Source: Pseudomonadota bacterium (GTDB lineage Bacteria; Pseudomonadota; Gammaproteobacteria; Burkholderiales; Methylophilaceae). Taken from it: 44,369 bases of DNA. The notes under the pieces were generated by a model. The model searched no databases and was not told where the DNA came from. It saw only the letters and a list, made by a program, of their open reading frames with translations. Position numbers and translations under genes: made by a program. Every line of letters begins with the position of its first letter. Within the stretch, counting starts at the first letter, position 1. This document shows, piece by piece, positions 9,999 to 25,446 of the stretch. The stretch spans positions 1 through 44,369 of the forward strand of contig JAKQTN010000034.1 in NCBI GenBank assembly GCA_029563075.1, given 5' to 3'.

Positions 9999-11921
9999 AT
10001 GGGCAAAATTATTGGTATTGACTTAGGTACAACAAACTCTTGCGTTGCCGTGATGGAAGGCGGCAAACCGCGCGTAATTGAAAACGCTGAGGGTACACGT
10101 ACCACACCTTCTATCATCGCTTATCAGGAAGATGGCGAAATTTTAGCTGGCGCGCCTGCCAAGCGCCAGGCGGTAACTAACCCTAAAAATACACTGTTTG
10201 CAGTAAAGCGTTTGATTGGCCGTCGCTTTGAAGAAAAAGAAGTGCAAAAAGACATTAAACTCATGCCTTACACCATTGCTAAAGCCGATAACGGTGACGC
10301 ATGGGTTGAAGTACGCGGCACAAAAATGGCGCCGCCACAAATCTCGGCTGAAGTACTGCGTAAAATGAAAAAAACTGCCGAAGACTATTTAGGCGAAGAA
10401 GTAACCGAGGCGGTAATCACAGTGCCAGCTTACTTTAACGACAGTCAGCGTCAAGCCACTAAAGACGCAGGCCGTATCGCAGGTTTGGACGTAAAGCGTA
10501 TCATTAACGAACCAACCGCCGCCGCACTGGCATTTGGCTTGGATAAACAGGAAGGCGACCGCAAAATTGCCGTGTACGACTTGGGCGGCGGTACTTTTGA
10601 CGTGTCAATTATCGAAATTTCCAGCATTGATGGCGAGCACCAATTTGAAGTACTTTCGACCAACGGCGATACATTCCTGGGCGGCGAAGACTTTGATAAC
10701 CGCATCATCGACTTTTTAGCGGATGAATTCAAAAAAGAAAACGGCCTGGATTTACGTAATGACCTGTTGGCCAAGCAGCGCTTAAAAGAAGCCGCCGAAA
10801 AAGCAAAAATCGAGCTTTCCGGCGCAGCACAAACTGAAGTGAATTTGCCGTACATTACGGCAGATGCAACAGGGCCGAAGCACTTGGTGGTGAAGATCAC
10901 GCGGGCGAAATTAGAATCTCTTGTGGATGATTTGATTGAACGCACCATCGCACCATGTAAAACTGCTTTGAAAGATGCCGGCGTTTCACCTTCGGACATT
11001 TCCGACGTGATTTTGGTCGGCGGCCAAAGCCGTATGCCGAAAGTGCAGGAAAAAGTAAAAGAAATCTTCGGCAAAGAGCCACGTAAAGACGTGAACCCGG
11101 ACGAAGCGGTGGCTGTGGGCGCGGCGATTCAAGGCGGCGTGCTGCAAGGTGACGTGAAAGACGTGCTGTTGCTTGATGTAACGCCATTGTCACTCGGCAT
11201 TGAAACGCTTGGCGGCGTGATGACCAAACTCATCAAGAAAAACACCACGATTCCTACCAAGGCTGCGCAGACTTTCTCAACCGCTGAGGACAACCAGAAT
11301 GCCGTGACCATTCAGGTATTGCAGGGTGAGCGCGAAATGGCCAGCGGCAATAAATCGCTTGGTCAATTTAACTTAAGTGATATTCCACCTGCACCGCGTG
11401 GCATGCCACAAATTGAGGTGACGTTTGACATCGACGCCAACGGTATTTTGCATGTTTCCGCAAAAGATAAAGCCACTGGCAAAGAAAACAAAATCACCAT
11501 CAAAGCCAACAGCGGCTTGAGTGAAGATGAAATTAAACGCATGGAAGAAGATGCAGCCGCTCACGCAGACGAAGACAAAAAACTGCGCGAACTGGTAGAC
11601 GCACGTAACGCCGCAGATGGCATGGTACATAGCGTGAAAAAATCTCTCACCGAGCATGGTGACAAGCTGGATGCGGCTGAAAAAGAAGCGATTGAAGCGG
11701 CTATCAAAGACGTGGAAGATGTGATAAAAGATGGCGATAAAGAAACCATCGAAGCCAAAACCAATGCACTGATGGAAGCTTCACAAAAACTGGGCGAAAA
11801 AGTGTATGCAGAGCAGCAGGCGCAAGCCAATACGCAAAGCGCTCAACCAAGCCCGGAAGGCGAAAAAACGGTAGATGCAGAAGTCGTAGATGCTGAGTTT
11901 GAAGAAGTGAAAAAAGACTAA
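9999..11921 (+). CDS. dnaK: Hsp70 chaperone DnaK
   Basis: 640 residues, standard length. The ATPase domain shows [14 protein letters not shown] at 5-18, the [13 protein letters not shown] phosphate block and [13 protein letters not shown]. The substrate domain (from about 390) contains [14 protein letters not shown]. The lid ends with the acidic tail [13 protein letters not shown]. DnaK folds proteins with DnaJ and GrpE and in proteobacteria also holds and delivers sigma-32 for degradation, which closes a feedback loop with rpoH further along this window. The ribosome binding site AAAGGAACG precedes the ATG. Confidence 0.98.
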
Positions 11922-21543: not shown

Positions 21544-22451
21544 ACGTCTGGCTCACTCAGCATACTCAGGCGCTAAGCCTGGTACTAAGACGCTTCAGAA
21601 CAAACAAACTCGGTACATTACTGATTTGCTTCACGATAGGTATTACAGTTGCCCTGCCAAGCATCATGTACGCGGTTCTGGATAGTGTAAATAATCTGAC
21701 CAGCAATATAAAAAGCGAGTCACGAATCAGTGTTTTTCTGGCTTTAAATCATAGCGACGCGGCCATACAAACAATCAAAGCCGCTTTAGAAAAAAATGCT
21801 GCTATTAAGAACTTCAAGTTCGTATCAAAAGAAGAAGCCCTCGGCCAGCTGCAGGCCTTAGACACCAATAAAGATGTGCTACATTCACTTGAGAAAAACC
21901 CCTTGCCCGATGCTTTTTTTGTGGAACCGAGCAAGCTTGATGCTGAATCGATAGAGAATCTTAAAGCAGCTTTAAGCAAAATGGACGGTGTCGAAGAAGT
22001 CATTGTGGATGGCGCCTGGATTAAACGCCTCAATTACCTGCTGTTGCTGGGCCAAAAGGCAATGCTCGCTATCGCTGGCTTGTTGGCGTTCGCACTGGCG
22101 GCTGTCATCGCCAATACCATCCGCATGCAAATCGTCACACAAAGCGCAGAGATAGAATTAAGCCAACTAATCGGTGCCACCAGAAGCTTTATCCGCAGGC
22201 CGTTTTTGTACGCTGGCGCGCTGTATGGCTTAATCGGCGGACTGTTCGCACTGCTGATTACCTTTACGGTCATTTTCCTGTTTAACCAGTCCCTCGCACC
22301 GCTAGCGGCCGAGTATCAAACAAGCTTTTCACTCACTTATCCCAGTCTTCCAACAAGCATCATCACCTGTTTGCTATCTATCGTGGTCGGGCTGATTTCA
22401 GCCTATCTTGCTGTATCTAAATCGATGTATAAATTATCCAGTAGCCACTGA
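21540..22451 (+). CDS. ftsX: Cell division membrane protein FtsX
   Basis: 303 residues with four membrane segments (about 25-50, 175-198, 222-250 and 273-295). A periplasmic domain between the first two contains VSKEEALGQLQ and NPLPDAFFVEP, typical of FtsX. Partner of FtsE in divisome activation. The stop codon is part of the terminator stem that separates it from rpoH. Confidence 0.96.
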   Translation: MNVWLTQHTQALSLVLRRFRTNKLGTLLICFTIGITVALPSIMYAVLDSVNNLTSNIKSESRISVFLALNHSDAAIQTIKAALEKNAAIKNFKFVSKEEALGQLQALDTNKDVLHSLEKNPLPDAFFVEPSKLDAESIENLKAALSKMDGVEEVIVDGAWIKRLNYLLLLGQKAMLAIAGLLAFALAAVIANTIRMQIVTQSAEIELSQLIGATRSFIRRPFLYAGALYGLIGGLFALLITFTVIFLFNQSLAPLAAEYQTSFSLTYPSLPTSIITCLLSIVVGLISAYLAVSKSMYKLSSSH

Positions 22452-22481
22452 AAAGACCTTTTAAAAAATCCCGGTCTTTTC
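22450..22481 (+). terminator. Terminator between ftsX and rpoH
   Basis: GAAAAGACC at 22450 pairs with GGTCTTTTC ending at 22481 around a 14-base AT-rich loop that itself has a TTTTAAAAAA core. The stem begins inside the ftsX stop codon. It isolates the rpoH promoter from read-through. Confidence 0.7.
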
Positions 22482-22495
22482 GGAACTTTCAGAGT

Positions 22496-22525
22496 CTAGC
22501 ACTCTCGAAGTTAGAGTGCTAAAAT
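22496..22525 (+). promoter_or_regulatory. CIRCE operator (HrcA site) overlapping an extended -10 promoter of rpoH
   Basis: CTAGCACTC (22496-22504), 9 bases, GAGTGCTAA (22514-22522): 17 of 18 arm positions match the CIRCE consensus TTAGCACTC-N9-GAGTGCTAA, and the spacer is exact. The right arm runs into TGCTAAAAT, an extended -10 hexamer (TAAAAT at 22520-22525). A bound HrcA repressor would therefore block RNA polymerase. The transcript would begin near 22532, giving a leader of about 24 bases. Confidence 0.93.
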
Positions 22526-22542
22526 AGCAATAACTATTAATT

Positions 22543-22558
22543 AAGGAGTTTTACTATA
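22543..22558 (+). promoter_or_regulatory. Shine-Dalgarno and apparent ATA start codon of rpoH
   Basis: AAGGAG at 22543-22548 is followed after 7 bases by ATA (22556-22558), where the conserved RpoH N-terminus begins (ATA then Asn-Ala-Leu-Thr-Ile-Pro). The frame is closed by TAA at 22538. Between that stop and TTG 22691 there is no ATG, GTG or TTG in frame. One base change would turn ATA into ATG. Confidence 0.75.
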
Positions 22559-23407
22559 AACGCTTTAACTATACCGTCGATCTCGTCACTTGACAGCTTT
22601 GATCAGTATGTTCGTGCCATCAAAGCCTTCCCGCTTCTGAGCGCGGAGGAAGAGTATGAATATGCAACTCGCCTCAAGAAAAATAATGACTTGGAGGCTG
22701 CACAGTTGCTGATTGTTTCGCATCTGCGCTTGGTTGTGAGCATCGCGCGTGGCTACATGGGTTACGGTTTACCACAGTCAGACCTTATTCAGGAAGGCAA
22801 TATTGGCCTAATGAAGGCAGTTAAACGCTTCGACCCAGACCGTGGCGTGCGTCTTGTTTCATTTGCCATGCATTGGATTAAAGCAGAGATTAATGAATTT
22901 ATCGTGCGCAACTGGCGCTTGGTTAAAACCGCCACTACCAAAGCACAACGTAAATTATTTTTTAATTTGCGCAGCATGAAACAAGGCCTGGAATCGCTTC
23001 ATCCTGACGAAGTCAACCATATTGCACGCGAGCTGAAGGTCAAGCCGGAAGAAGTGCGCGAGATGGAATACCGCTTGAACGGGCATGAAATTTCTTTGGA
23101 TGCGCATATTGACGATGACGGTGAGGAAAGCTTTAGCCCGATTGCCTACCTGGAAGACGAAAGCCCGGAGCCTTCTGCGTTTTTAGAAAACCAGCAAACC
23201 GAACAGTTGCAATCCATGGGCTTAAGCAAGGCATTAGAAAGCTTGGACGAGCGCAGCCGCCGCGTGCTGGAAGCGCGTTGGCTCACGGAAAATGCAACTT
23301 CAACCTTGCATGACTTGGCTGCTGAATTTAATGTTTCCGCTGAGCGTATCCGCCAGATTGAACAAAAAGCCATGCAGAAGATTAAAGCTTTAATGCTTAA
23401 ATCTTAA
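22556..23407 (+). CDS. rpoH: Heat-shock sigma factor RpoH (sigma-32), apparent AUA start
   Basis: From ATA 22556 the protein has 283 residues, the normal length. SLDSFDQYVRAIKAFPLLSAEEE is the usual region 1.2 entry, so starting at the first standard codon (TTG 22691) would remove 45 conserved residues. Core region 2 reads SHLRLVVSIARGYMGYGLPQSDLIQEGNIGLMKAV. QRKLFFNLR is the RpoH box that separates it from other sigma factors. Region 4.2 is NVSAERIRQIEQKAMQKIK. It directs RNA polymerase to heat-shock promoters such as the two in front of grpE and dnaK here. Control seen in the sequence: HrcA operator, short leader and a start codon normally disfavoured by IF3. Confidence 0.93.
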   Translation: MNALTIPSISSLDSFDQYVRAIKAFPLLSAEEEYEYATRLKKNNDLEAAQLLIVSHLRLVVSIARGYMGYGLPQSDLIQEGNIGLMKAVKRFDPDRGVRLVSFAMHWIKAEINEFIVRNWRLVKTATTKAQRKLFFNLRSMKQGLESLHPDEVNHIARELKVKPEEVREMEYRLNGHEISLDAHIDDDGEESFSPIAYLEDESPEPSAFLENQQTEQLQSMGLSKALESLDERSRRVLEARWLTENATSTLHDLAAEFNVSAERIRQIEQKAMQKIKALMLKS

Positions 23408-23421
23408 TTTGTTTTAACAAT

Positions 23422-23450
23422 AAAAAAGCCGACATTGCGTCGGCTTTTTT
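23422..23450. terminator. Bidirectional terminator between rpoH and the dynamin gene
   Basis: AAAAAAGCCGAC and GTCGGCTTTTTT pair over 12 bases around a 5-base loop. The A and T runs on both sides let it work for both converging genes. Confidence 0.95.
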
Positions 23451-23466
23451 GTTAGCTGCAATTAAC

Positions 23467-25425
23467 TCAAGCTGCTTTAGTTTCTGCTTCACTCTCAAAT
23501 GCCAATGCATTACCCATATGCTGACGCAATACTTTTAGATCCATCATCTGGGCACGTATGCTTTTCTCGATATTTTCAAGCTCTAGAATACGGTCTTCCA
23601 AGGTGTCGGTTGCCTTGTAGATGCGTTTAATACTTTCCAGGCGGCGGCGTAATTGTAACTGATGCTCGCGCACCTGCGACTCCATCGGCGCGATCACGGC
23701 TTTCAACCAGTTCTCAACGTCACGGTTAGCCACTTCATACACATGTATCACACGGCTTGCCAAGGTTTCAAAAAACTTGGTGGTCAGCGTCATTTTCTCA
23801 TTCGCGATCATATTAAATGTCGTATTAAACTGCTCTTTATAAGCACGTTCAAGTTTGGCCAGTTCTTTCTGGTAACGCAGCGTTGAAAACGCCGGCGGCT
23901 CGGATTTGCGCAAGCCATGTTCCTTAGAAAATTTGTCGTACATCACATCCATCATTTTCTTAATCTCATCGATCTGCGCATCGGATGACACTAATCGGCC
24001 TTTTAGATCGGTGAAAAAATGATCCATCGCCTCACGGATTGTTTTGGTAAAACTGGCGTTTACCATGGTTTCACGCGTGGTATGCACCTGCATCTTTAGC
24101 GCTTCCATGCCCAGCAAGGTAAACAGCTTGTTGGTTTGCTGCGAGAACACGCTGCGCAATGCCTGAAAACGCTGCAAGCCTTTTTCAAAGTTCTCCTTGT
24201 CCACCTTCACCTTGTTCATCATGTGCTCAACCACATCTTCGTTTTTGCCGCGCAAACCACGAAGCTCTTCAAGTTGTTCTGCCACGCCTGATATTCGTGA
24301 TTCTAAAATCATGTTCGAATTGCTGATTAAATCCTCAATCTCGTTTTTTGTATTGTCGCGGACGATTTCTTTTTTTGAAGGAATCAGTTCGTCAGACAAG
24401 GCTTTTTCCAGCGCCGGTAGCCGACTCTGTGCCAATAAAGCATCATCGCCATTGATTTTGGCTAACAGGCCTTTTTGGGCGGAGGTTGGGAAAATCTGAT
24501 TTGTTTCCAAGCCAAGCAGCTCAGCACTCATCTTAACTTGCTTGCTGATTTCCTTTTCAATTTCCTTTTCGTTTTTCAGCTCGTCCCAAAGACCGTCAAT
24601 TTTGTTTAATACAGCCAAGCGGCCTTTTTGTTTCCAGCGCGTGCCGCTGATATATTGGCGCCATACGTCAATCTCGGATTTTGTCACGCCGGTATCTGCA
24701 GCCAGAATAAACAGCACAGCATGCGCATTCGGCAGCATATTCAATGTCAGCTCGGGCTCGGTTCCGATGGCGTTCAAGCCCGGGGTATCTAAAATAACCA
24801 GCCCCTGCTCAAGCAAAGGATGTGGGAAATTAATCATGGCGTAGCGCCAGCATGGAATATCGACAGTGCCGTCTTTATTCAGGCTCATGGCGTCGTCACT
24901 GCTGTTGGGGTCAAAAAGCCCGTATTTTTCAGCTTCCGCTGCTGTCACCCGCTTAGTGCTGCTGACTTCTTTGAATGCAGCCACCATGCTATCGTTATTA
25001 TCGACATCAAACACGACCGTGTGCCATTCATCCGGATAGCGCTTGTACTCGGTAGTAGTGGCATCTGAGGCGCGCGTATCAATTGGCAACATCATGATGG
25101 AGGTCGGTTTTGACGGGTCATACAATAACTCTGTGGGGCACATCGTGGTGCGGCCCGCGCTGGATGGCAGCAGGCGTTGGCCGTAATCTGCAAAGAAGAT
25201 GGCATTGATCAATTCTGATTTGCCACGTGAGAATTCGGCCACAAACGCGACATTCAGTTTATCTTCACGTAAACGCTCGAGCAGATTGGTGATGCGTTGA
25301 TCTATTTGCGCGTCATTGAGCTCCTGCTCATTCAGCCAGCTGCGATAATCGCAAATACTGTCTACCAGCGCCTTTCTCCACTCAGAGTAGGCTGTAAACT
25401 GGTGCGCTAATTTATTTTCTGCCAT
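23467..25425 (-). CDS. Dynamin-like large GTPase
   Basis: Start ATG 25425 (652 residues), preceded by a GGGGA ribosome binding site; a GTG at 25437 would add four residues. GTPase motifs: P-loop AEFSRGKS (about 63-70), the Thr-rich switch I region (SSAGRTTMCPTELL), DTPG (213-216) and NKID (274-277). The remaining 350 residues are mostly long charged helices, which fits the stalk of bacterial dynamins. Bacterial dynamin-like proteins bind and remodel membranes; some help repair them under antibiotic or phage stress. It is a single gene, which is unusual, as many bacterial dynamins come in pairs. Its role here is unknown. Confidence 0.87.
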   Translation of the reverse strand: MAENKLAHQFTAYSEWRKALVDSICDYRSWLNEQELNDAQIDQRITNLLERLREDKLNVAFVAEFSRGKSELINAIFFADYGQRLLPSSAGRTTMCPTELLYDPSKPTSIMMLPIDTRASDATTTEYKRYPDEWHTVVFDVDNNDSMVAAFKEVSSTKRVTAAEAEKYGLFDPNSSDDAMSLNKDGTVDIPCWRYAMINFPHPLLEQGLVILDTPGLNAIGTEPELTLNMLPNAHAVLFILAADTGVTKSEIDVWRQYISGTRWKQKGRLAVLNKIDGLWDELKNEKEIEKEISKQVKMSAELLGLETNQIFPTSAQKGLLAKINGDDALLAQSRLPALEKALSDELIPSKKEIVRDNTKNEIEDLISNSNMILESRISGVAEQLEELRGLRGKNEDVVEHMMNKVKVDKENFEKGLQRFQALRSVFSQQTNKLFTLLGMEALKMQVHTTRETMVNASFTKTIREAMDHFFTDLKGRLVSSDAQIDEIKKMMDVMYDKFSKEHGLRKSEPPAFSTLRYQKELAKLERAYKEQFNTTFNMIANEKMTLTTKFFETLASRVIHVYEVANRDVENWLKAVIAPMESQVREHQLQLRRRLESIKRIYKATDTLEDRILELENIEKSIRAQMMDLKVLRQHMGNALAFESEAETKAA

Positions 25426-25446
25426 GCGAGTCCCCACTTAATCCCC

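Follow-up and report, generated by a model that had tools for sequence, protein, structure and literature searches.

The gene rpoH, encoding the heat-shock sigma factor sigma-32, raises a simple question in one genome of the Methylophilaceae: where does its translation begin, if no canonical start codon stands at the expected place? The gene was analysed within a contig of 44,369 nucleotides (JAKQTN010000034.1, assembly GCA_029563075.1, hereafter the window), where it occupies positions 22556-23407 of the forward strand (283 codons and a stop) and is identified by profile matches. A Shine-Dalgarno sequence, AAGGAG (22543-22548), lies 7 nt upstream of the codon ATA (22556-22558), which is followed by Asn-Ala-Leu-Thr-Ile-Pro (AAC GCT TTA ACT ATA CCG, 22559-22576). 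The frame is closed upstream by TAA (22538-22540), and no ATG, GTG or TTG occurs in it between this stop and TTG 22691-22693, 45 codons past ATA. The first-pass annotation had described the site in just these terms, and all of its elements, including the gap of seven bases, were found as described. The locus thus combines an AUH codon (AUA, AUC or AUU) at Shine-Dalgarno distance with the lack of a usable in-frame ATG, GTG or TTG, an arrangement referred to below as AUH-start anatomy. The codon preceding ATA is ACT, which leaves AUA as the sole start candidate in the window.

The predicted protein supports this reading. Read from ATA, it exceeds the cut-offs of two RpoH profiles, NF005143 (422 bits, cut-off 241) and TIGR02392 (404 bits, cut-off 323.1), and carries the Pfam domains Sigma70_r2 and r4. 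Residue 6 of the ATA-started protein aligns with position 7 of the sigma-32 profile NF005143 (285 positions), so that a start at ATA gives the complete protein to within about one residue. Started from TTG, the protein would lose 45 codons and its match would begin only at profile position 48, in keeping with the earlier expectation that a start at this TTG deletes the conserved N-terminus; it is not the start. The gene is preceded on the same strand by those for FtsY (19767), FtsE (20875) and FtsX (21540), all three of which exceed their profile cut-offs, and ftsY-ftsE-ftsX-rpoH is the usual gene order. AUA 22556 as the start codon of rpoH is, on the evidence of the sequence, strongly supported.

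The start codon was compared among relatives. A match to rpoH (E 1e-90) was present in 169 of 187 genomes of the family, and the start region was read in 105 of them, 41 belonging to a clade of four genera (g1, g20, g8 and g10) and 64 lying outside it. In 40 of the 41 clade genomes an AUH codon stands at the start (ATA in 18, ATC in 12, ATT in 10), which, together with the full-length profile match, bears out the proposal that rpoH starts at ATA. Genus g1, to which the window belongs, has AUH in 14 of 14 genomes (ATA 11, ATT 3; the reading for G012 comes from a fragment at the end of a contig, and there was no rpoH match in G001, which is 83% complete), and g20 in 20 of 20 (ATC 11, ATT 5, ATA 4), two further genomes being without an rpoH match. 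The one genome of g8 has ATT. Five of the six genomes of g10 have AUH, and the exception, G023, has either kept ATG or reverted to it, so the AUH start is not indispensable. Within the clade, RpoH identity to the protein of the window falls to 72% (G095), and the GGAG of the Shine-Dalgarno sequence is kept in 39 of the 40 AUH members, G120 having GGAT.

Outside the clade all 64 starts are canonical, 63 being ATG and one GTG (G100). An automatic start rule gave ATG in 63 of 65 rows, G023 included, and the two others were then read by eye: one (L027) proved to be an ATG displaced by an alignment gap, the other (L290) a GTG. The non-clade start lies nearly always one codon upstream of the clade's AUH position (Met-Thr/Ser-Asn-Ala-Leu), and only two genomes of genus g16 (L182, L304) have ATG at the same codon. 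With the ATG of most other genera one codon upstream, a simple change of ATG to ATA at one and the same codon, as first envisaged, is not the likeliest history. Among the best 80 of at least 592 distant named rpoH records (L033-L112), all have a canonical codon in frame before residue 14, so that a second origin of AUH is not seen there, a codon of this kind not in itself proving that it is the start; in ten of the 80 (L034, L043, L044, L056, L060, L061, L071, L074, L100 and L104) no canonical codon has a recognised Shine-Dalgarno sequence.

The anatomy is rare within a genome. In the single-contig congener G007, 1.2 Mb (46%) was screened for coding ORFs in which ATA, ATT, ATC or CTG follows a Shine-Dalgarno sequence and in which the span between the upstream stop and a point more than eight codons further on contains no ATG, GTG or TTG; this screen was used in place of an earlier one based on a coding score, which had recovered infC yet missed rpoH. 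Two of 985 coding ORFs have the AUH anatomy, infC and rpoH, that is, the gene of the start-codon inspector IF3 and that of the heat-shock sigma factor. In the window rpoH is the only such ORF among 36. None of 30 ORFs qualified in two 20-kb stretches of G114 (L264, L265), though L265 holds rpoH; the gene was missed because an ATG stands at codon -7, the screen being blind to in-frame canonical codons upstream.

ATA is the first codon of infC in each of the 13 genomes of g1 in which the N-terminus is covered, including the genome of the window itself (G000:C64:6524, L203); the gene is truncated in G004 and gave no match in G003. ATA is also the infC start in ten other genomes of the family that were read, and AUA is thus very probably a working start codon in this organism. 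Unlike that of rpoH, the infC start stays ATA in the family members read, with no movement among A, C and T, while outside the family both ATA and ATC starts are found.

The history of the rpoH start was followed on a tree of 45 genomes (30 AUH and 15 other rows), built from the codons after the start only. On it, AUH arises once, at the clade's base (support 95/93), and is lost once (G023). The start states require ten changes in all. Apart from these two and one that stems from the misplacement of row L027, about seven remain, in which A, C and T replace one another at the third base. None of these swaps leads to G.

Such a history might reflect a tolerated accident, in which an ancestral AUG was lost once, a strong Shine-Dalgarno sequence compensates, and the codon has drifted since without regulatory use. 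The single gain and the ATG of G023 are compatible with this, and the missing reversion to AUG could be due to chance: among 31 fourfold sites of rpoH that show A, C and T in the 30 AUH rows, four are likewise without G, so that the absence of G is not significant alone. Drift would, however, have had to avoid AUG in four genera, over the range of RpoH divergence given above and through some seven third-base swaps, although a one-base change would restore it, and GTG and TTG are equally absent at this codon. The codons behind the start are also constrained at synonymous sites: in 13 rows of g1, five of the first six (22559-22576 in the window) are synonymously invariant, versus 11 of 190 other amino-acid-invariant codons (Fisher p 1.1e-5, for a region picked after inspecting the data). 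Finally, the only other gene of the same anatomy in the G007 screen is infC. An accident without function is, all in all, unlikely, while keeping some real weight. The invariant synonymous choices behind the start include TTA, ATA and CCG.

The invariance of these synonymous sites within the genus would also fit a site acting mainly as an RNA thermometer, in which the Shine-Dalgarno sequence is sequestered in a hairpin that opens on heating. In the minimum-energy fold, the Shine-Dalgarno region indeed pairs with GCUUUAA of the second and third post-start codons, and the start is located at the loop. The fold has, however, a z-score of only -1.15, and the predicted folds differ between species. 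The mean unpaired probability of the Shine-Dalgarno sequence is 0.287 in the native sequence versus 0.281 with random synonymous codons, and in none of the sequences tested (38 of 40) was the native one among the most hidden tenth. A thermometer is therefore quite improbable and was rejected, the Shine-Dalgarno sequence being hidden no more than by random synonymous codons. A search of Rfam over 21900-23500 gave no match up to E 1 touching the start region, and only weak sub-threshold ones at 23247-23500.

The conservation of ATA, ATC and ATT, taken alone, is also compatible with an internal isoleucine, translation starting elsewhere, either upstream or at a downstream internal ATG or TTG. In thirty of the 40 AUH genes the stretch from the upstream stop to AUH is free of canonical codons, and ten have one in frame there. 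Five of these (G010, G114, G118, G033 and G097) carry it only on the 5' side of the Shine-Dalgarno sequence. The remaining five (ATG in G021, G095, G098 and G099, TTG in G123) have it 1 nt past the Shine-Dalgarno sequence and two codons ahead of AUH; these codons speak for an upstream start in five species, in which they may serve as poor starts. The ATG of the four former genes (L135, L150, L151 and L152, belonging to G021, G098, G099 and G095, respectively) is possibly a step back toward AUG, or a second start.

Several genomes carry a stop codon two to six codons before AUH, which argues against an upstream start. G125 has a TAG in frame two codons ahead of its ATT, and the stop of six genomes of g1 (G006, G007, G008, G011, G012 and G014) overlaps the Shine-Dalgarno sequence, so that almost no alternative start is left. 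The codon preceding AUH varies among the 40 clade members (ATC 12, ATT 11, ACT 7, ACC 6, GTT 2, GAT 1, GCC 1), and the amino acid there is thus not kept. On the 3' side of AUH, amino acids are kept and from the fourth codon on it is mostly the third positions that vary; the clade comparison reveals no third-position pattern in the variation 5' of the Shine-Dalgarno sequence. A downstream start could be sought at codon 17, which is ATG in 13 of 14 genomes of g1, but it is GTT in the window, so that downstream candidates are not common to the genus, and in G007 this ATG lacks a Shine-Dalgarno sequence. The family profile, moreover, reaches to a few residues from the AUH codon. A start elsewhere is accordingly very improbable. 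The choice between neighbouring AUH codons is a finer matter: in 23 of the 40 genes the codon before AUH, at the site of other genera's ATG, is itself AUC or AUU, so that either of the two could serve in those genes. This preceding AUC or AUU has the appearance of a decayed ancestral start.

The first-pass annotation had considered as the main alternative that ATG was turned into ATA by a sequencing error or a mutation in the strain, and would have accepted this on finding ATG in close relatives. This alternative is refuted and practically negligible, since none of the 14 genomes of g1 with rpoH has ATG there, and the codon class is shared by 40 assemblies from different species, several of which (G007, G033, G114) consist of a single contig.

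The AUH start thus remains the preferred reading, and it lies in a distinct transcriptional setting. A CIRCE operator, the site of HrcA, CTAGCACTC-N9-GAGTGCTAA, is located at 22496-22522 of the forward strand, with one mismatch to the consensus; it is the sole match in the window at up to three mismatches, where a mean of 0.01 is expected. The genome of the window (G000; 2.11 Mb in 82 contigs) contains two CIRCE sites at up to two mismatches, this one and another (G000:C78:100436-100462) upstream of a gene resembling groES on visual inspection. It also encodes hrcA, and rpoH, with CIRCE upstream and hrcA in the genome, can be assigned to the HrcA/CIRCE regulon. The sequence TAAAAT (22520-22525, forward strand), which overlaps the right arm of CIRCE, resembles a -10 element; transcription would then begin near 22532, with a leader some 24 nt long. 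The sequence GAGTGCTAAAAT, or a near copy of it, is found upstream of rpoH in many relatives. No CIRCE was found near the Hsp70 gene (dnaK) of the window (9999-11921). With CIRCE at rpoH and none at dnaK, a regulatory cascade from HrcA through rpoH to dnaK is plausible.

Downstream of rpoH and convergent with it, the window encodes a dynamin-like protein of 656 amino acids (23467-25437, reverse strand) with the Pfam domain Dynamin_N and no NCBIfam match at 1e-10; DNA resembling this region by eye also lies 3' of rpoH in G012 (L126). As to the organism, two matches to hexulose-6-phosphate synthase above cut-off were found in G000 and none in four genomes of other families of the order, and it is thus likely a methylotroph of the Methylophilaceae, perhaps belonging to Methylotenera.

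Several features suggest that the heat response is deliberately throttled at translation initiation in this clade. Of the three bases of an AUH codon, two pair with the initiator anticodon, and the class is discriminated against by IF3. The use of mismatched pairs, such as AUU with the anticodon CAU, is lowered by IF3 in vitro (PMC10158994). In rpoH, the normal fMet initiator tRNA would read AUH with a third-position mismatch, while the strong Shine-Dalgarno sequence 7 nt upstream would place the ribosome on this codon. IF3 would disfavour the resulting 30S complex, so that RpoH may be produced at only part of the rate that AUG would allow, and more of it would be synthesised when IF3 is low relative to ribosomes; CIRCE and HrcA would separately control transcription. 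We consider it probable that the AUH start of the clade's rpoH works in this way, as a brake from which the cell presumably benefits. By analogy with sigR, the Staphylococcus aureus genes and the other AUH-like starts discussed below, RpoH would be kept low and would be sensitive to the amount of IF3 per ribosome.

The first-pass annotation had suggested that this codon could keep synthesis low or couple it to IF3 in the manner of infC, and such a role is plausible because infC also starts with ATA in G000 and the rpoH codon stays AUH across the clade. A further step can be proposed only tentatively, namely that the start-codon checkpoint is itself a stress input: less free IF3 per ribosome would raise IF3 and sigma-32 together, and the arrangement, gained once, would have been kept by selection against AUG. 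If control by IF3 is real, heat-shock sigma factor synthesis would be tied to the IF3-to-ribosome ratio, and an initiation-fidelity input would be added to heat-shock control. This ratio is variable in Escherichia coli, where it rises about threefold during cold adaptation, according to one study (PMC6511846).

The recurrence of AUH in 40 species, with ATA, ATC and ATT shifting among them, offers a natural test of initiation fidelity as a regulatory input. It also bears on annotation, since methods limited to ATG, GTG and TTG would shorten RpoH by 45 codons in the window and by 18 in G007. To our knowledge, conserved non-AUG starts are known for few bacterial genes. An AUH start in rpoH was not found reported among the open-access papers listed, from which subscription papers are mostly absent; what appears new here is a conserved non-AUG regulatory start in a heat-shock sigma factor, with three interchangeable codons.

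Among known systems, E. coli rpoH is a translational thermosensor that uses AUG together with mRNA structure, and translation is its regulated step, as it would be in the clade, whose rpoH has an AUH start and for which a dedicated structure found no support. The pcnB gene of E. coli, encoding poly(A) polymerase, reportedly starts with AUU (Binns and Masters 2002); it resembles the clade's rpoH in that an AUH start would limit synthesis, and differs in that its product is not a stress sigma factor. The same codon class is used by infC, which has an AUU, AUA or AUC start and is autoregulated by IF3 in E. coli. It has ATA in the same genome as the rpoH studied here, and the difference is that infC regulates its own repressor, while the signal would gain a second output through rpoH.

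AUH starts in other genes are known from S. aureus, whose infC starts with AUA (PMC13009471). Reporters of ccpN and citZ (AUA) and of cvfC1 (AUU) gave about 10% of the AUG level in poor medium, and ccpN rose to about 30% in rich medium (PMC13009471). The AUH starts of ccpN and cvfC1 are conserved and have extended Shine-Dalgarno motifs, while the AUA of citZ is limited to one strain lineage (PMC13009471). Unlike rpoH, these are genes of a Firmicute acting in central metabolism or encoding a small protein, and none is a heat-shock sigma factor. In Listeria, rsbW start mutants with ATA or ATT are reported in which SigB activity was raised (PMC13068326).

A further case is sigR of Streptomyces, which starts with GTC and is repressed by IF3; with canonical starts or in IF3 mutants its regulon becomes constitutive, and the authors could not show a release by oxidative stress (PMC5472188). 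The two systems differ in several respects. The sigR gene is paired with that of an anti-sigma factor in one operon, whereas rpoH has ftsX and the dynamin-like gene as neighbours. It has one fixed GTC, mismatched at the first and third bases, whereas rpoH has three interchangeable AUH codons and a CIRCE upstream, and its repression by IF3 was demonstrated, while for rpoH we infer it. Nevertheless, both genes encode a stress sigma factor with a noncanonical start, a strong ribosome-binding site and conservation across a clade, and both are misannotated by methods that allow only ATG, GTG and TTG.
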